IMG/VR virus record: IMGVR_UViG_3300031521_000040
Span: 1 to 64,000 of that record
Source: a virus
DNA length: 64,000 nucleotides
Strand: one strand, 5' to 3'
Made by a program: the position numbers and the translations under genes. Positions 2,875 through 40,774 of this stretch are shown here, one piece after another (within the stretch, counting starts at the first letter, position 1; every line of letters starts with the position of its first letter). Under the pieces are notes generated by a model. It saw only the letters and a program-made list of their open reading frames with translations, ran no database searches and was not told the DNA's origin.

Positions 2875-3036
2875 TTATCGTTTTTTATTAGCCCTCTCTT
2901 GCATTTTTTCGATTTCTTCATTCTCTTTTTGAAGTAGATATAAAAAATGTCGTCTTCTATATACAGGTAAATTTTCTATGTATTCTGCCTGAAATTTAGC
3001 ATGTTTGGTTAAGATATATATTTCTTCATCCACCAT
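2875..3036 (-). CDS. -1 frame extension of the gp26-like gene (or small separate ORF)
   Basis: The frame is open from the T9C4 run at 3063-3075 to a TAA at 2875-2877. If translation slips -1 at TTTTTTC it continues the upstream protein with PQHLTGEYKK and then 53 further residues, giving a product of about 361 residues instead of 301. Read alone from the ATG at 3034-3036 it is a 53-residue protein, charged and helical, with a central LPVYRRRHFLYLL and a Glu-rich end. It sits between the gp26-like gene and the tape measure, exactly where lambda places the T part of gpG/gpGT. Known: many tailed phages make a tape-measure chaperone this way. Inference: this gene does the same. Confidence 0.68.
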   Translation of the reverse strand: MVDEEIYILTKHAKFQAEYIENLPVYRRRHFLYLLQKENEEIEKMQERANKKR

Positions 3037-3053
3037 CTTCTTATATTCACCCG

Positions 3054-3959
3054 TTAGGTGTTGGGGAAAAAAAAATCTATTCCAACAGTTAAACTTGCAA
3101 AAAATTTATATCCATCATTGGCTACAAATTCATATGACATGTTTACATTAGGACTTACATCCGATATTTTTCTACGAATAGTATAGGCATCTAATGCAGG
3201 CATAGCATCAACAAATTTATCAATATATGATCTATCCATATTATCATTAATTGATACAATTGATGCTTTTAATTTTAATGTATTATTTTGGCTAAACTCT
3301 TCACCATAAGCTTCTTGAATTGCTTTAGCTTGGTTATCAATGCTAATATCTTCACCAGATGTTAATAATCTAAAAACAACACTTTTTTTACGCATCGGTA
3401 TCTGAACTAAAAAATGTCCTTTAGCATCTGGAAATTCAGTAAGTTCTTTATATGTTAATCTTAGTAGATCAACCTTAGTTGTAAATGGAATACCGCTTCT
3501 AGGGTCAGTTACTTGTACTGTATAATCAGCGCCATAGCTTGAAGTACGTAGAAATAATAATATTGCATTTCTATCGCCAGCCAACAAATCCTTAATTGCA
3601 ACATTAGGCGTTTTTATTTTTCTTCTTAGTAAAATATCTAAAACAGTACCGTTTTCAATTAGCGATGGTGTAGTTAATAAATCTTCATCTTTGGAAGTCA
3701 TATACTCAACAGCTACTTCCGATATACCATTATTATAGAACAAACCTTTTGATGGTAATTTAATAATTTCATATGAAGTCATTAAATCGGGGTCGGTTTC
3801 CTTGGACATGGTTTTTTCAAAATCGTTTTGATTAAACGGTTGTATTTTAGGAATTGAAGCATTTATTACAGGATTTGATTCAGTTTCGGATTTAGATGCG
3901 TTTTTATAGTTGTTTAATGCATCACCTATTGATTCTTTTTTGGGCGTGTTGTTTTCCAT
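3054..3959 (-). CDS. gp26/gp51-type baseplate protein, probable tape-measure chaperone
   Basis: A 301-residue protein with the features of the T4 gp26/gp51 baseplate family: a disordered N-terminus (~1-60), then EIIKLPSKGLFYNNGISEVA (the LPSKG-x-FY start of the domain), followed by TSKDEDLLTTPSLIENGT. In T4 these proteins act in assembly of the central hub; related proteins are thought to escort the tape measure. Its neighbours fit: the next minus-strand genes are a short -1 frame extension and the tape measure. The frame ends at a T9C4 tract, so the normal end (FFFPNT) is reached only without slippage. An AGTATTTATT motif lies 25 nt upstream. The family call is moderately firm and the chaperone role is inferred. 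Confidence 0.72.
   Translation of the reverse strand: MENNTPKKESIGDALNNYKNASKSETESNPVINASIPKIQPFNQNDFEKTMSKETDPDLMTSYEIIKLPSKGLFYNNGISEVAVEYMTSKDEDLLTTPSLIENGTVLDILLRRKIKTPNVAIKDLLAGDRNAILLFLRTSSYGADYTVQVTDPRSGIPFTTKVDLLRLTYKELTEFPDAKGHFLVQIPMRKKSVVFRLLTSGEDISIDNQAKAIQEAYGEEFSQNNTLKLKASIVSINDNMDRSYIDKFVDAMPALDAYTIRRKISDVSPNVNMSYEFVANDGYKFFASLTVGIDFFFPNT
3066..3072 (-). other. candidate -1 ribosomal slippery heptamer TTTTTTC
   Basis: On the minus strand the zero-frame codons are gat ttt ttt ttc ccc aac acc taa. The heptamer T TTT TTC has the X XXY YYZ form for tandem -1 slippage. The -1 frame is then open for 63 codons. A homopolymer sequencing error in T9 or C4 is the main alternative. Confidence 0.62.
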
Positions 3960-12502: not shown

Positions 12503-13297
12503 ATGAATATATCAATACCCATACCGCAGGAGTTATTCACTGCTTTTAATGACGTTACGTTTTTTGACGAACCGCATAAGTATTATGTGAATAATAGGGA
12601 ATTGATTTCTGTTACTACATTAATTCACCAATATCAAGGTGATTTTGAATCTGATTATTGGTCTGACTATAAGGCAAAACAGTTTAACCTCAAGCAATAC
12701 CAAATATTACGAGCATGGAACTTTATAAATAAGAAAGGTACTGTTAAAGGTTCTGCTATTCATGATTATGCTGAAAATTTATTTCAAAATAAAAAATATG
12801 AATATCCAAAAAATATCATATTAAAAGAATTTGGATTTGATCCTGTTATAAATGAATACATGAAAACCAAATCACATGTAAACAACTTCTATAACGATGT
12901 ACAAGGTAGATTGATTCCAATTAGAGCCGAATTAGTAATGTATGATAAGGAAACATACATCGGGGGAATGCTCGATATGTTATTCTATAATGTGAAGGCA
13001 AAGGAGTTTCAAATTTGGGATCATAAAACTAATAAGGATTTTACATATGAAGAACCATCAAGACACTTATTAGATGAATTATTTTTACTGGAAGATTGTG
13101 ATTTAGAGGTTTATTCGTTACAACTTGGTTTATATAAGTATATTATAGAGAAAAATGTGCCAATAAAATTAGGAAAATCGTATTTAATATGGTATTCGCA
13201 CAATAATGAAAATTATGAAATAATTGAATGTAAGGATAGAACATATTATGTAAATAAAATCATTGAGAAAAGAATTGAAGAAATTAAAGGTCTTTGA
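12503..13297 (+). CDS. PD-(D/E)XK nuclease (Cas4/RecB-like)
   Basis: A 264-residue nuclease of the RecB/Cas4 exonuclease type. Motifs in order: AIHDYAENLF (His, near residue 88), IGGMLDMLF (Asp, near 155), IWDHKTNKDF (D-x-K, near 172) and QLGLYKYIIE (the Q-x3-Y motif, near 215). Such enzymes resect DNA ends in replication and recombination. The gene has a host-type promoter rather than a late motif, consistent with use during replication. It ends 14 nt inside the convergent LAGLIDADG endonuclease gene. Confidence 0.82.
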   Translation: MNISIPIPQELFTAFNDVTFFDEPHKYYVNNRELISVTTLIHQYQGDFESDYWSDYKAKQFNLKQYQILRAWNFINKKGTVKGSAIHDYAENLFQNKKYEYPKNIILKEFGFDPVINEYMKTKSHVNNFYNDVQGRLIPIRAELVMYDKETYIGGMLDMLFYNVKAKEFQIWDHKTNKDFTYEEPSRHLLDELFLLEDCDLEVYSLQLGLYKYIIEKNVPIKLGKSYLIWYSHNNENYEIIECKDRTYYVNKIIEKRIEEIKGL

Positions 13298-14087
13298 ATT
13301 GTATTCTTTTTCTTAACAATCCCAATTCATATATGTCGTAATCAAAATACAGATAATTTTCGAATTTTAATAAATCTTTTTTATTTGATACTCTTATTTG
13401 TGATGACCTTCCACCTCTACTCATAATAATTCTATATTTAAAATTTTCAATTTTTATTTTTTTGAAAAATTGAATAATGAAAGCCCAATCTTGTTCTGCA
13501 TGTCCAGTAAACGCTATTGAATGATGTCCTTTATTTTTTATTGTTACCGACCCATCCCCATCAAAAAATCCTCTAAACCAATAAACTCTTAAATCATCAG
13601 GTATTTTATTTAAAATTTTTTCAGGAGATTTTAGTTTATTTTTATAATCGTGTTCAATTAAATAATCACCTATTTTTCTATCAGATATCCAATTAGTATT
13701 AATTAATTTTTTCTCATTAGCAAAACTTCCTTTATTTACCGACTGAAATGTATTCCATTTACCTATTTCGTTTAGCGTTTTTAAAAAATATATGTTATCA
13801 TCTGGTTTGGATGAATGTTTTATAATAGGTGTTTTTGCATTGTTATTAGAATATGCAATATGACCGTCAGCCCATAATAATCCTAAAATATATGCAACCT
13901 CTTTTGTTGTAATGTTTTCAAATTGTTCGAAATTAACGTGTCTGTTTTTGTGTAAATTCAATGTAGCCACTTTTGCTTTTATTGAGTACTTTTCCTTGTT
14001 TAACGTACTGACACAGTAGTCAAGACCATGTTTAGGATACTCGTTTTTGATGAATTCTATTTCTTTATCGCTATAAGTATTTTTCAT
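13284..14087 (-). CDS. LAGLIDADG homing endonuclease (free-standing)
   Basis: A 267-residue protein with two LAGLIDADG motifs, YILGLLWADGHIA at ~66-78 and FRGFFDGDGSV at ~171-181, after an N-terminal DNA-binding part (~1-55) whose KEIEFIKNEYPKHGLD segment resembles a small helix-turn-helix. It is monomeric by layout. It sits between the PD-(D/E)XK nuclease and the tail-tube gene, in the minus orientation, downstream of the tail-tube terminator. No intron is evident around it. The 14-nt tail-to-tail overlap with the nuclease gene suggests late insertion. Confidence 0.9.
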   Translation of the reverse strand: MKNTYSDKEIEFIKNEYPKHGLDYCVSTLNKEKYSIKAKVATLNLHKNRHVNFEQFENITTKEVAYILGLLWADGHIAYSNNNAKTPIIKHSSKPDDNIYFLKTLNEIGKWNTFQSVNKGSFANEKKLINTNWISDRKIGDYLIEHDYKNKLKSPEKILNKIPDDLRVYWFRGFFDGDGSVTIKNKGHHSIAFTGHAEQDWAFIIQFFKKIKIENFKYRIIMSRGGRSSQIRVSNKKDLLKFENYLYFDYDIYELGLLRKRIQFKDL

Positions 14088-15264: not shown

Positions 15265-16839
15265 TTAAATATTATTTATAAACATATATTTGTTATTTCC
15301 ACAATCATATATTCTAGGTATTTTCCTCTCCAACATTATTTCATGCTCTGTTTTGCTATTATCAAAGCCGTTGGTTACTAAGACATCTTTTCTAAATAAA
15401 AATCTGTGTTTTCTTTCTTTACCCACGACATACCAATAGTTAGGACTTGTAGTGTAAAGATATTCAAATTTTAATTGTTTATAGAGATTTCCATTGCTAT
15501 ACCGTTTATTGGCGAAGGTGATTACTGTTTTAGGTATGTAATGCAACAAAAAATATTTAAATAACTTAGATGCTGCACCTATATTACTATGATTTATTTT
15601 ATTACAAAATCTTAGCATTTCATAGTCATTCTCGTCGTTTTTCGTTTTGTTTCCTAAAACATTTCTGAGTTTACCAAACGTCATTAATGATATTAATTCA
15701 TTATTATTAAACAAGCCGATTTTTATTGATGAATTAACATTACCTTGTATGTGATTATTGTTTAGAAATTCCAGAGAGGTTTTACTATCAATTTCCCTTA
15801 TAATACATTTTCTAGCAAATATTTTGTGACTTGTTAAATTTAGTTTATTTTTTATAATTGATAATATGACATCATATTTTTCCAACAGCTCGTCTTCAAA
15901 GAAGTGTAATAATTGAATATTCTTTTCTTCACACATTTTAGTTTTTTTAATATGATAATCATCATCTATGTAGTATTCGGAGTGCCAATATAGTCCATCG
16001 ATTTCAATGGCTAAACGATAATCAGGAATGTAAATATCAAGCTCCAATCCAATAGTCTTTCTGTCGTTAGGAATATATGTTATATTACTTTCCTTTAAAA
16101 AATTACACAGTTTTCTTTCAAATGTTGTCCTAGGTGAACCAATTGGCTGTATTGTAGTGGATAACTCAACATTATGATTTAATCTGTTGTTGATCTGTTT
16201 TCTATTGCCAATAAAAACATGTCCATCCGGATGCAACACTTTTATGTTTTCATTAATAAATTCAAGTATTTTATACCCGCTTTCTTCAAATTTTTTTGAA
16301 AGAGCCAGTTGTCTTTTTATCTCTAATTTGGCTAATATATTTTTATGTATTTCAGCACCTCTTATTTTATATGTTTTTCTAAGATTACCCAAAGCTTTTA
16401 ATCTAACCTCTTCAATTTGAAACGTGTTATCAACGCCATATTTTTCAAAAACAGCTTTTTGTGTGGCTTTTATTCTTAATATAATATTTTCGGGTCTAGC
16501 CTGCCACTCAACTCTACATTTTTCACTGCAAAACATTCTTTCATGTGTAATCTTCTCAACAAACAATTCACCACAGATCAAGCATTTTCTAGTTTCTCTA
16601 GAATTAATTTTTTTTGCTTCATCCGAGCATAGTCGTGAACAATATCTAGTGTTGAATTTTTTTTTCGATCTAAATATTATTCCACAGCGCTCACATGGTT
16701 TTTCGATATAATATTTTTCATCATTTTTTTCTCTAAAATTTAGTTTACATTCTTTTGAGCAAAACATTGTTTCACGTCCTTTTTTAACATGAAATTCATT
16801 GCTGCAATGTTTACATACTAATTTAATAACTGTTGCCAT
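15265..16839 (-). CDS. EDxHD-type homing endonuclease with zinc fingers and Mom/GNAT-like domain
   Basis: A 524-residue protein. Residues 9-110 hold three CxxC...CxxxC zinc-finger-like units (CKHC/CSKEC, CERCG/CSRLC, CLICG/CSEKC). A helical spacer follows. The Vsr-like nuclease covers ~240-320, with ELDIYIPDYRLAIEIDGLYW and H286 supplying the E-D-x-H pattern of the I-Bth0305I family. From ~345 it has a GNAT-like domain resembling phage Mom proteins (NHIQGNVNSS, SLMTFGK, TFANKRYSNGNLYKQLKF, KHRFLFRKD). A second protein at 53.4-54.8 kb shares the nuclease and this domain closely. It lies between tail genes, with its own promoter-like motif and terminator, as a mobile unit would. Confidence 0.85.
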   Translation of the reverse strand: MATVIKLVCKHCSNEFHVKKGRETMFCSKECKLNFREKNDEKYYIEKPCERCGIIFRSKKKFNTRYCSRLCSDEAKKINSRETRKCLICGELFVEKITHERMFCSEKCRVEWQARPENIILRIKATQKAVFEKYGVDNTFQIEEVRLKALGNLRKTYKIRGAEIHKNILAKLEIKRQLALSKKFEESGYKILEFINENIKVLHPDGHVFIGNRKQINNRLNHNVELSTTIQPIGSPRTTFERKLCNFLKESNITYIPNDRKTIGLELDIYIPDYRLAIEIDGLYWHSEYYIDDDYHIKKTKMCEEKNIQLLHFFEDELLEKYDVILSIIKNKLNLTSHKIFARKCIIREIDSKTSLEFLNNNHIQGNVNSSIKIGLFNNNELISLMTFGKLRNVLGNKTKNDENDYEMLRFCNKINHSNIGAASKLFKYFLLHYIPKTVITFANKRYSNGNLYKQLKFEYLYTTSPNYWYVVGKERKHRFLFRKDVLVTNGFDNSKTEHEIMLERKIPRIYDCGNNKYMFINNI

Positions 16840-35617: not shown

Positions 35618-38164
35618 ATGGATCACAAGCCTACTCCTGAACAAGAAAGAATATTCCTTTTTATAAAGAAAAGAACTGAAAACATTGTTATTAAAGCCTT
35701 TGCAGGCACTGGTAAAACTTCTACCATAGTTGAAGCAGTTAAGCTGCTGCCCAAAGACAAGCAAATCATGTTCTTAGCATTTAATAAGCACATCCAAGTC
35801 GAATTGCAGGAAAAGTTACCCAGCCACGTGCGCACTTACACTACTTATGGTTTAGGTACATCAGCCATTAAAAGGAAATATGGTGATAGCATTCAATTTG
35901 ATGAATTTAAAATAGATAAAATCATCCAGAAGAAAGCTAAGTCATGGGATTTAGACGATGAGTTTAAAACAGAAGAAGAAATATTTGTTTATTTAAACAA
36001 CATTAAGAAATTAGTTAACCTTTGCAGACTAACACTTACTTTAAAGCCCGAATACGTGCCTTACGTGGCAGAACGTTATGAAGTTAATATAAGCAAGCCA
36101 AATGATATTAAAAGGGTTCTAAAGGTCTTAAATGATGCAACGCTGGATAGGAAGTCTTTTGATTACACCGATATGATATATTTACCAGCAGTTGATAACA
36201 GTATTTGGATGTTTCCACAAGATTATGTGTTTATTGATGAATGTTTGCCAGCTAAAACATATATTTCAACAATAGAGGGTAAAAGACAATTAGGTGCGCT
36301 TTATTATTTGAGCAAGAAAAATATTACATTACCTGATATTATTACTTATAATGAAAAAACCAGCCTTTTTGAAAACAAAAAAATTAATAAAATTTGGTGT
36401 ACAGGGAAAAAAGATGTTTATTATGTTGTTTTAAATGGAAAAAGAAAATTAAAATCGACTGTTAATCATAGATTTTTAACATTATCTGGCTGGAAAAGAT
36501 TAGATGAACTAAAAATTGGTGATTCTGTAATTTCAAATTATAATAATCAACCATATCATGAAATATTCAATGAAACCCAAAAGAATATAGTAATCGGATC
36601 AAAGCTTGGTGATGGACATCTTGGAAAAATTTCTGATGACATATATAGACTAAGTGTAATACATGGCGAAAAGCAGAAAGAATATTGTGAATGGAAAGCA
36701 TCCTTTTTTGATTCTAAAATAAAAAATTTAAAAAATAACGGCTATGCGAAAAAGCAAGCATATTCCTTTACGACCAAAGGATTTTATTTTAATATATGTG
36801 AAAGTGAAATCATCAATAACATGTCACTACAATCATTAGCGATATCTTGGATGGATGATGGTAATTTAGCAAAAAATGAATTGAGTTCCACTCTTTACTC
36901 AACAGCTAAGAGTGTGAGATTGTCTCAATTACTTTCCGATAAAATTAATGGTCTTTGGAATATTTCATCAACAGTTAGAAAATCTAAAAGCTCAACAACA
37001 AAAAACCCATATTATCGGTTATTGTTTAATAAAGAAAATACTCAAAAAATTTCAAGTCTTTTGGCGCAGTATATTCACCCAAGCATGGGGTATAAGTTAT
37101 GTACTAATGATAGAAATAAATTTAATGAAACACTATGGCTTAATGAAAAAATAAATTTAGGATGTATGGTTGTTACATCTGAGCATAAATTTTATAAATA
37201 TGAAAATACTTATGATATGTCCGTTGAAGATAATCACAATTTCATTGTAACATCCGAAAGTTACATAAATGGTGCTGCTGGAAATTTTGGAATAATAACA
37301 CATAACTGTCAAGACCTTAACAGATGTCAGATTAAAATCATTGAGAAAATATTGAAAAGAGATAAACTAAGCGGAAAAATTACTGGCAGACTGATTTCTG
37401 TTGGTGATTATTTTCAAGGAATTTATGGTTTCAATGCAGCGGATGATAAATCTTTCGAATGGTTTGAAAAATTCCCCAATACTAAGGTATTGCCTTTGTC
37501 AGTATCATTCAGATGTGCTAAAAATGTTATACTAAAAGCTCAAGAGATCGTCCCTGATATTAAAGCATTAGATGATGCACCCGATGGACTTGTAAGGGAT
37601 GGAAATGTGCTTACAGAGGCTGAAAGCGGTGATTTCGTTATATGTAGAACGACAATGCCATTGGTTAAGCTATTTTTCGAGTTTCTAACACAACATAAAA
37701 AAGCAGTTATTAAGGGTAGTGATATTGGCATTCAATTAATTGAATTAATAGGTAAAATCGATACGATTGATAAGCTTAAAACATTTTGGGAAGGTGAGCT
37801 ACATTCGTTTAAAAAAGAGTTGAAATCAACAGGCATATTGAATCCATCAGAGCATAGTGGATATTCAGCATTAGAAGATAAAGTAATGACATTGTTGTTT
37901 TTAGCTAAACTATCCACTAACATTACCGAATTAAAATTAAACATCAGAACTATTTTTACTGATGAAATTGTGGGAATATGCTTAAGTACAGTGCATAAGA
38001 TCAAAGGACTTGAAGCTAATCGTGTTTTTATAGTAAGACCCGATTTACTGCCATTACCCAATGCTCATGGTTGGCAATCTATACAAGAAAAGAACCTAGC
38101 CTACGTAGCGTATACGAGAGCTAAGCTAGAACTTATATTTGATAGAGAATGGAGCGATGAATAA
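35618..38164 (+). CDS. SF1 (UvrD-like) DNA helicase interrupted by an intein
   Basis: An 848-residue precursor. The helicase host protein would be 493 residues after splicing. Its motifs are: Q-like PTPEQERIFLFI, motif I KAFAGTGKTSTIVEA (~28-42), Ia LAFNKHIQVEL, motif II VFIDE/CQDLN (split by the intein after Glu208), III GDYFQGIYGF, IV SVSFRCAKN, V STVHKIKGLEANRVFI and VI NLAYVAYTRAKLELIF. It should unwind DNA with 3'-5' polarity in replication or repair. The downstream gene starts in the overlapping TAATG. The intein must splice to restore the Walker B motif. Confidence 0.92.
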   Translation: MDHKPTPEQERIFLFIKKRTENIVIKAFAGTGKTSTIVEAVKLLPKDKQIMFLAFNKHIQVELQEKLPSHVRTYTTYGLGTSAIKRKYGDSIQFDEFKIDKIIQKKAKSWDLDDEFKTEEEIFVYLNNIKKLVNLCRLTLTLKPEYVPYVAERYEVNISKPNDIKRVLKVLNDATLDRKSFDYTDMIYLPAVDNSIWMFPQDYVFIDECLPAKTYISTIEGKRQLGALYYLSKKNITLPDIITYNEKTSLFENKKINKIWCTGKKDVYYVVLNGKRKLKSTVNHRFLTLSGWKRLDELKIGDSVISNYNNQPYHEIFNETQKNIVIGSKLGDGHLGKISDDIYRLSVIHGEKQKEYCEWKASFFDSKIKNLKNNGYAKKQAYSFTTKGFYFNICESEIINNMSLQSLAISWMDDGNLAKNELSSTLYSTAKSVRLSQLLSDKINGLWNISSTVRKSKSSTTKNPYYRLLFNKENTQKISSLLAQYIHPSMGYKLCTNDRNKFNETLWLNEKINLGCMVVTSEHKFYKYENTYDMSVEDNHNFIVTSESYINGAAGNFGIITHNCQDLNRCQIKIIEKILKRDKLSGKITGRLISVGDYFQGIYGFNAADDKSFEWFEKFPNTKVLPLSVSFRCAKNVILKAQEIVPDIKALDDAPDGLVRDGNVLTEAESGDFVICRTTMPLVKLFFEFLTQHKKAVIKGSDIGIQLIELIGKIDTIDKLKTFWEGELHSFKKELKSTGILNPSEHSGYSALEDKVMTLLFLAKLSTNITELKLNIRTIFTDEIVGICLSTVHKIKGLEANRVFIVRPDLLPLPNAHGWQSIQEKNLAYVAYTRAKLELIFDREWSDE
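36242..37306 (+). mobile_element. 355-residue intein with LAGLIDADG endonuclease in helicase Walker B
   Basis: The intein starts at Cys209 (CLPAKTYISTIEGKRQLGAL) and ends THN before Cys564 of the downstream extein. Splicing block B is TVNHRFLTL, and the C-terminal blocks are YDMSVEDNHNFIVTS and FGIITHN, with the penultimate His and terminal Asn present. Between them are two LAGLIDADG-type motifs, VIGSKLGDGHLGK and LAISWMDDGNLAK. All residues needed for Cys-type splicing are there. The insertion joins FIDE to CQDLN, which disables ATP hydrolysis until it is removed. Confidence 0.95.
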
Positions 38165-38765: not shown

Positions 38766-39044
38766 ATGGAATGGAAAGTATTAATTGAAGGAAAACCTAA
38801 TTTAAGAATCATGGTTAAATTTCTTCCACTAACAGAACAAATCGCCTTTATAGGTCAGTTTAAAAGAACTAATTTGGAATGGGTGAATTTTTGCATTGAG
38901 GAACATACTATGTATATTGATTTAGATCAAATCAATGAAATGTTGGTTAAAACATATGATACTATGACGACAAGAATTAATATGTATAATGAAGTTGCCG
39001 AAGGTTTCACTCTTATTAAGGTGATTGAAGTTAAAGAAGATTAA
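38766..39044 (+). CDS. hypothetical protein
   Basis: 92 residues. A beta-rich start (WKVLIEGKPNLRIMVKFLPL) with TEQIAFIGQFKRTNLEW and WVNFCIEEHTMYIDLDQINE precedes a helical end. It overlaps the convergent Mom-like/GIY-YIG gene by 4 nt at the 3' end. No family recognised; similar small beta/alpha proteins are common in large phages. Confidence 0.68.
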   Translation: MEWKVLIEGKPNLRIMVKFLPLTEQIAFIGQFKRTNLEWVNFCIEEHTMYIDLDQINEMLVKTYDTMTTRINMYNEVAEGFTLIKVIEVKED

Positions 39045-40774
39045 TCGGTAATTAATTTAAATTCAAAAAAGTCATAATACCATGGCTTGCCTGTTTTCAG
39101 CTCAATTTGTTTTCTTTTAAATTTTGATTCTAATATAAAATCTGGATATGTTTCGGTAATATGTATGGTCAAACAGCCTGATTTATTTATATAATCAGTA
39201 AATACTCTACCTGTTTTTTTACATGTTAAAACATAATGATTTACTGAATTGTAATTGTCATCGACAGGTTTAGCTCTTTTGGTGAAAATTCCACTGAGCG
39301 TCGAAAAATTAATATCATATTTTCTTGAAATTTCCCTGATTGGCATATTATCTTTTTCATAATCACTATATATGCACTTCAATTCATCCACAGAGAATTC
39401 CTCTAATGTTCTATGTTTTTGAGAACTAAATGATTTTTGTGTGTTATTAATATAGTCCTCTTCGTAGCACCAATAAATGTTTTGATTATTTTTTGTATGT
39501 CCCAAGCATTTCCTCAGAATTTGTTCATGTGATAGTCCATCGATATTATTTCTTCCAGCATCAGCTAAAGATGAATATCTTTCAATAATGGTATCAATAT
39601 TTCTATCAATTTTAATAACAGGCTTGGATACTTGAATAACTCTTTTCTGAATCCATTCTTTACTTTGCTTGACATTTTTTCTAATTCTAGATAATTTTTC
39701 TTTGGTTTCATCATGACTAAAAGACCTTATTCCACCAAATTCAATATTATAACCCAAATTTCTATTAGTTGAGTCGTATTCATAAATATATTTAATTTCT
39801 TTATAGTTTAATTCATCAGTTGTTTGTGCAGTATCTATAATATTAAACTTAAATTTATCGAATCCATATTTGTCGAAAGCTTTTAATACATATAAATTAC
39901 AACACTTAGCTCTGTTTTTGTATTCATTATATCTATCGTTAAAGCCTCTTGTTGTTTGACCTACATATTTTTTATTATTTACAGTATTCTCAATTAAATA
40001 AATTATACCAGCAATTTCGTTGTTTTTTTTAGGGTATTCTAATTTTATGTGCTTAATCGATTCAAGAAATTTTTTATTTTCTACTTTATTACCTATAAAA
40101 TAGAAGTATCTTCTTTTTCTATATTGTGAAAGAAAAATTGCATTAGGATATTTTTCTAATATTACATCTTTTTTAATTGTTCCAAATTCTTTCCTGATAG
40201 AGCGTGAATGTTTCAATTTTCCATCGATAAAAACCGAGAATCTCTTGGTTTCTCTTCCGTTTTTTCCGTAGTTTCCTGTCATGAGACCAACATAGTGCCA
40301 ATTTAGTGATTGATATATAATACCTATTTCACCAGCTGATGGGTCAACACTTGCTGTTATTATTTTATATTCTGTATTTTTTTTAAGCCAATCAGCTGTC
40401 TTAGAAATAAAATAGGAAGCTGTATTTTTTGGTGTCCACCAAAGGCATGTACCTCGACTTAATAATATTATTTTATTTGTATACCCATACTTATCCCAAG
40501 TAGTAGATTTATTTGCTGAGTATTCTTCTGAATATATAACAACGCCACCTAAATGGTATTCATTATCTATATTAAAATATATTCCAAAAAAATATCTATT
40601 AAATAACGGCATTGTTTTAAGCCATTCATATTTTAAAATAATATTTCTCGCTGTGCTAAAATCTATTAGTTCTATTTTTGTATTAGATAATGCAGCTTTG
40701 CCATAATCAAAATCAATTGTTGCGGATTCGATTTCTTCTTGTTTTTTACGTACTTTATATTGATATGCTTCCAT
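39041..40774 (-). CDS. Mom-like GNAT domain fused to GIY-YIG endonuclease
   Basis: About 577 residues from the ATG at 40774; an in-frame start at 40834 lies inside the capsid terminator and is rejected. Residues ~35-250 resemble phage Mom DNA-modification proteins (GNAT fold): GGVVIYSEEY, a central TASVDPSAGEIGIIYQSLNW, HYVGLMTG, FIDGKLKHSRSIRKEFGT, and the C-terminal YRKRRYFYFIGNK...LEYPKK. Residues ~256-348 are a GIY-YIG nuclease (AGIIYLIENTVNNKKYVGQT and a later Glu). The rest has NUMOD3-type (SHDETKEKLSRIRKNVKQSK) and helix-turn-helix segments (REISRKYDINFSTLSGIF). It is either a mom-like gene invaded in frame by an endonuclease or a composite homing enzyme. Confidence 0.78.
   Translation of the reverse strand: MEAYQYKVRKKQEEIESATIDFDYGKAALSNTKIELIDFSTARNIILKYEWLKTMPLFNRYFFGIYFNIDNEYHLGGVVIYSEEYSANKSTTWDKYGYTNKIILLSRGTCLWWTPKNTASYFISKTADWLKKNTEYKIITASVDPSAGEIGIIYQSLNWHYVGLMTGNYGKNGRETKRFSVFIDGKLKHSRSIRKEFGTIKKDVILEKYPNAIFLSQYRKRRYFYFIGNKVENKKFLESIKHIKLEYPKKNNEIAGIIYLIENTVNNKKYVGQTTRGFNDRYNEYKNRAKCCNLYVLKAFDKYGFDKFKFNIIDTAQTTDELNYKEIKYIYEYDSTNRNLGYNIEFGGIRSFSHDETKEKLSRIRKNVKQSKEWIQKRVIQVSKPVIKIDRNIDTIIERYSSLADAGRNNIDGLSHEQILRKCLGHTKNNQNIYWCYEEDYINNTQKSFSSQKHRTLEEFSVDELKCIYSDYEKDNMPIREISRKYDINFSTLSGIFTKRAKPVDDNYNSVNHYVLTCKKTGRVFTDYINKSGCLTIHITETYPDFILESKFKRKQIELKTGKPWYYDFFEFKLITD

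Follow-up and report, generated by a model that had tools for sequence, protein, structure and literature searches.

The stretch of DNA analysed here, to which we refer as the window, comprises the first 64,000 nt of an 83,181-base viral contig that carries T4-type head and tail genes (terminase, portal, major head protein, tail sheath and tail tube); the phage is a distant relative of T4. On the minus strand of the window, an open reading frame assigned to a short tail assembly chaperone (TAC-N) ends in the 0 frame with GAT (3077-3075) TTT TTT TTC (3068-3066) CCC AAC ACC TAA (3056-3054), the homopolymer pair at this site being T9 followed by C4. The -1 frame is open for 63 codons, from CCC (3066-3064) to the TAA at 2877-2875, and 64 bases separate its end from a tape-measure-like ORF that begins at 2810. 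The predicted product of the two frames joined by a -1 shift, TAC-NC, is ~361 aa long and reads GIDFFFPQHLTGEYK in the region of the junction. The features of the locus are collected in Table 1.

Table 1. Features of the tail assembly chaperone locus, in window coordinates
Feature	Position	Strand	Remark
TAC-N, short tail assembly chaperone (T4 gp26-like, PF12322)	3054..3959	-	0-frame ORF, 301 aa
Slippery heptamer T_TTT_TTC	3066..3072	-	slip-site Phe codons frozen in relatives
T_TTT_TTT, overlapping T_TTT_TTC	3069-3075	-	
T_TTC_CCC, overlapping T_TTT_TTC	3063-3069	-	
Predicted C-terminal extension of TAC-NC, -1 frame	2875..3066	-	63 codons + stop
Region homologous to the two-part RNA stem of relatives	2994..3059	-	weakened in window phage
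Outer stem pairing	3059-3049 with 3004-2994	-	
Inner stem pairing	3035-3029 with 3012-3006	-	
Local hairpin CACCU-AAC-GGGUG	3048..3060	-	5 nt past slippery heptamer
ATG within extension, potential separate start for gene callers	3034..3036	-	
Putative tape measure protein, 840 aa	288..2810	-	mainly from position

The 0-frame ORF matches PF12322, the family of T4 gp26 and gp51, at 25.1 bits (cut-off 24.5, E 1.7e-5) and the baseplate hub family phrog_150 with E 2.6e-6, and its AlphaFold model (pLDDT 82.8) matches T4-like baseplate hub proteins, for example that of SP-15 (E 4e-18); PF12322 also scores above its cut-off in 12 of 12 relatives. The ORF downstream is regarded as the probable tape measure gene mainly from its position, together with a match of one of seven tape measure homologues to the tape measure family phrog_167 (E 2e-5). 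It has hydrophobic stretches at 494-516 and 580-673, the ORF in the same position in relatives has about 817-864 aa where complete, and no direct match was found between the window protein and the tape measures of immuto, Mel-JY01 and SP-15. A search of bacterial genomes for a clue to the host returned no relative.

Elsewhere in the window, the gene at 35618-38164 (plus strand) encodes a Dda-like helicase with a LAGLIDADG segment, probably an intein, inserted at about residues 210-565. Endonuclease genes occur at 13284-14087, 15265-16839 and 39041-40774 (all on the minus strand), next to the genes for the tail tube, the sheath and the major head protein; the second and third of these endonuclease genes have matches both to homing endonucleases and to Mom-like DNA modification proteins.

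In-frame T_TTT_TTY heptamers are found only nine times in the 16,888 codons of the 36 long ORFs of the window, and the -1 frame remains open for 63-64 codons after the two heptamers at the slip site and for 0-8 codons after the other seven. A scan of viral contigs yielded 80 homologues, and the comparison set consisted of 52 distinct full-length copies, that is, the window and 51 relatives. The three slip-site columns read TTT in 52/52, TTT in 52/52 and TTC in 50/52 copies (every one of the 50 in which Phe is retained), and the Phe columns elsewhere in the TAC-N gene of the same copies contain a mixture of TTT and TTC. In every one of the 52 copies the 0-frame stop lies 3-4 codons past the slip run and is accompanied by a homologous -1 ORF, which has 64-78 codons when the slip run is taken as its start. 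The lengths of the runs vary among copies (T8-9, followed by C1, C3, C4 or C5) at constant phase, the two ORFs of the T8C3, T8C5, T9C3, T9C4 and T9C5 variants always being in -1 register. The arrangement at the slip site is more than chance. An earlier note on this DNA had described a gp26-like frame passing through T TTT TTC CCC, with a -1 slip opening 63 codons before the tape measure, and had named a continuous frame in relatives, or homopolymer lengths that would fuse the two frames, as evidence that would speak against frameshifting. The minus-strand sequence agrees with that description; all 52 distinct copies retain the slippery site and the -1 frame, and neither of the opposing patterns occurs in the clade.

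The extension itself has a median dN/dS of 0.13 (unsaturated pairs, 52 distinct copies), and frames other than -1 are interrupted by stops across it in every case. The LPVYRRRHFLYLL segment, which had been noted earlier for giving the extension a protein-like character, does belong to its most conserved parts. An AlphaFold model of the extension is all-helical (pLDDT 93.6); a Foldseek search with the 63 residues gave no significant match (best E 0.12), with P-HM1 Gp51 and tail assembly chaperones near the top of the nonsignificant list. The 83 kb record contains one PF12322 region and one extension, and eleven relatives of 246-366 kb, whose records come without a completeness estimate, each contain exactly one PF12322 match above the cut-off and one extension, two of the eleven showing an additional sub-threshold PF12322 match. 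Separate genes for a short and a long form, as with gp26 and gp51 of T4, are absent from this record and from all eleven large relatives. Because a single gp26 domain is accompanied by a single extension in the eleven, no other origin of the long protein is apparent. The possibility of a second chaperone gene at another place was also considered and rejected, none being found in the 83 kb record or in the 246-366 kb relatives.

Most relatives have the potential for a two-part RNA stem past the slip site. Its outer part pairs ACUUAGCG with CGCUAAGU, starting 6 nt past the heptamer and with the stop of the 0 frame lying within its 5' arm, and its inner part pairs UGGUC with GACCA. In the clade alignment 88.2% of the cells of this structure are paired compared with 84.5 (sd 0.5) in shuffles, and the covariation score is 0.196 compared with 0.143, a value reached in 0 of 500 shuffles. 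When the partners are slid along the alignment pairing falls to at most 43%, a comparison that favours the structure insofar as it was derived from the same sequences. The covariation signal lies largely at third codon positions and is synonymous, and the three variable third-position pairs of the stem rank 1, 2 and 4 among the 253 possible third-third pairs. Pair 35/56 combines C with G or T with A in all 37 sequences that have those letters, in nearly all cases as GTC with a Leu codon ending in G or as GTT with a Leu codon ending in A, and five or more changes of this pair fall on the tree. The strict test for phylogenetically independent pairs had too few supported pairs for significance; RNAalifold gave a consensus structure on the clade alignment and a second alignment-folding method gave none, and a search of the site against Rfam returned no match. 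Folds of three individual relatives (L002, L028 and L054) have z from -2.5 to -3.0. In the window's own copy of the stem 4 of 17 pairs are broken and the fold has a z of 0.02. The local hairpin of the window has 5 bp (-4.9 kcal/mol; z -1.1, not significant by shuffling) and is a possible substitute stimulator.

A profile search added 69 more distant loci (L102-L170). The first two of these, L102 and L103, have the extension in the -1 frame. In the set formed by the remaining loci, L104-L170, together with L080 and L081, a C-terminal ORF of 50 or more codons lies in the +1 frame, which is equivalent to -2, in 67 of 69, and the shift sites of the set are TTT TTT TGG CCT in 51, TTT TTT TAC CCT in 9, TTT TTT TGG CCA/CCC in 7, and two others. 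The profile of the window-clade extensions finds the +1-frame extensions at up to 61 bits. Phages Mel-JY01, immuto, SP-15, LIS04 and GXN1 belong to the +1 group, and XacN1, PA5oct and LR756511 to the -1 group. In a tree of the N-domain the -1 clade of the window (19 rows, SH-aLRT 100) is nested among the +1 kin, with the distant placements being uncertain. The T run is mostly T7 in the +1 kin, and immuto is without a long run (TTT CTT TGG). In the GenBank records of immuto (L082:4632-4934) and SP-15 (L086:4593-4916) only the end of the chaperone C-domain is annotated, as a short hypothetical ORF, and in both the +1 frame extends upstream of this ORF to the slip site.

We are highly confident that a single gene encodes the chaperone pair TAC-N/TAC-NC by a -1 slip at T_TTT_TTC, in the manner of gpG/gpGT of lambda, because the slip site is conserved, the -1 ORF is under purifying selection, the gene is present in single copy, the RNA of the relatives covaries, and homologous extensions exist in other phages of the T4 supergroup, to which this phage belongs. 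The programmed -1 frameshift of lambda type that the earlier note had proposed for a T4-type phage is thus supported by conservation, selection, copy number and the RNA of relatives; the slippage, its rate and the chaperone mechanism are what we infer from them. Most ribosomes would stop at the TAA at 3056-3054 and produce TAC-N of 301 aa, and a minority would slip back by one base at T_TTT_TTC, just before the stop, and produce TAC-NC of ~361 aa with a helical C-terminal domain. If the analogy with gpG/gpGT of lambda holds, the N-domain common to both forms would coat the tape measure protein, whose gene follows immediately, the C-domain would recruit the tail-tube protein, and TAC-NC would be present in a smaller amount than TAC-N, as in lambda (PMC5009743). 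In most relatives the two-part stem 6 nt downstream would assist the slipping, and in the window phage the weaker stem or the short hairpin may stand in for it.

The two frames could also be joined before translation, by transcriptional slippage, where the polymerase adds a U on T9 and some mRNAs carry the joined frame, with the ribosome never slipping. Bacterial polymerases are prone to slip on long T runs, and T9 is found in most relatives. We nevertheless regard this explanation as improbable, since six distinct full-length relatives have T8 only, and since the run is mostly T7 in the +1 kin, not a long run at all in immuto, and T6 in P-HM1, yet the same kind of domains are linked; moreover, a polymerase located on the run has still to transcribe the covarying stem, which comes after it. 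Two observations favour slipping by the ribosome: the same domains are joined in kin whose run is T6-T8 or that have no long run, and the conserved RNA structure follows the run.

A smaller chance still is given to the extension being a separate small gene that starts from the ATG at 3036 by translational coupling, comparable to the annotated gp51 of cyanophages. This ATG is present in 47 of the 52 copies, and there are short ORFs at the same place in the GenBank records of immuto and SP-15, as well as gp51 of P-HM1. The five other relatives, however, have GTT, ATA, TTA (twice) and TTG in its place; the codons between the slip and the ATG are equally constrained, with a pN/pS of 0.28 for the ten codons before the ATG vs 0.29 after it; the slip-site codons are frozen; and 37 of the 69 distant kin have no Met among the first 25 residues of the extension. 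A separate start at this position was rejected, the ATG not being universal and the codons upstream of it being equally constrained. Judged from its substitution pattern, the extension is under selection at the level of the protein, and it has no conserved start of its own. An error of sequencing or assembly at the T9C4 homopolymer pair, splitting what is a single continuous gene, has a negligible probability and is refuted for the clade by 52 distinct copies from many metagenomes, which share one -1 phase despite their differing T and C counts, with a continuous frame in no relative of the clade.

A history that we consider likely is the following: the direction of the frameshift would have been reversed at one orthologous recoding site (+1 or -2 at TTT_TTT_TGG in the kin, -1 at T_TTT_TTC with a long RNA stem in the nested window clade), and elsewhere, in T4 and separately in L120, gene duplication and fusion would have replaced the frameshift. 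A large clade of the T4 supergroup has the predicted frameshift, close kin have it in the opposite direction, and T4 and L120 have short and fused genes; the changes in how a two-form chaperone is made are therefore traceable within one protein family. The short ORFs annotated as "gp51" or hypothetical at the same place in P-HM1, immuto and SP-15 are probably frameshift extensions, and the records should join the frames.

Frameshifting in tail assembly chaperones is already known, and it has been cited for some T4-like phages as well; the case of the window appears to be an unannotated instance of a known phage trick. A review describes it as widespread in long-tailed phages "except T4" (PMC5009743). 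Vladimirov et al. 2022 are cited in a passage of the PRFect article (PMC10885494) for T4-like phages some of which instead have a fused long gene beside a short one, and in a passage of PMC12846349 for -1 signals of poly-T type in the TAC-N genes of T4-like phages. Our limited literature search found no description of the reversal of direction or of the covarying stem.

The statement of the earlier note that the corresponding genes are separate in T4 holds for T4, with its gp26 and gp51, but a frameshift appears to be used by most of the relatives studied here; the long-form architecture of gp51, the opposite direction in related clades and the RNA structure are beyond what that note had observed. 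PF12322 covers the whole of T4 gp26 (1-206) and residues 1-201 of the 249 of gp51, so that gp51 consists of a gp26-type domain and a C-terminal piece of ~48 extra residues. The logic of a short plus a long form is the same as in the window clade, the two forms being made from two divergent genes in T4 and from one gene with a predicted frameshift in the clade. The direct match between the extension and the C-terminus of T4 gp51 is weak (phrog_634 at best 9e-4; hhalign E 0.075). P-HM1 gp51 is recovered with E 1e-7 by a profile built from all extensions (2,009 sequences searched, 2,000 of them decoys), and phrog_634 is common to the gp51 of P-HM1 (E 8e-25) and of T4 (E 1e-23); the proposed homology of the extension with T4 gp51 depends on P-HM1 as the intermediate.

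The cyanophage P-HM1 resembles the window in having T_TTT_TTC followed by a stop, a continuous -1 frame and a homologous extension: its gp26 ends GAT TTT TTC GTA TAG, and the -1 frame runs unbroken into the annotated gp51. It differs in its slip run of T6, its shorter gp26 (232 aa) and a simple hairpin, 5 nt past the heptamer (z -3.9). The annotated gp26 and 53-aa gp51 of P-HM1 (L175:8677-9557) look like one frameshifted gene, the 53-residue gp51 probably being the frameshift extension. Within the +1 group, L120 has two tandem chaperone genes (L120:2938-4715) that mirror gp26 and gp51 of T4. The short gene has a broken T-run and no extension, and it is followed by a continuous N+C gene of 305 aa; the frameshift site has decayed where a fused gene exists, as the proposed function predicts.

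The Vandenendeviridae phage Adele, as described in part of PMC12846349, is like the window in its poly-T slip and -1 frame upstream of the tape measure; the Vandenendeviridae are other phage families than the window's, and that part of the article describes neither a switch of direction nor a covarying stem. Lambda gpG/gpGT resembles the window in that two ORFs overlap immediately ahead of the tape measure, in a -1 slip, predicted for the window, close to where the first ORF ends, and in the short form being expected as the major product. Unlike lambda, the window has a protein of the PF12322 family (~300 aa), a poly-U slip site and a T4-type phage background with contractile-tail genes.
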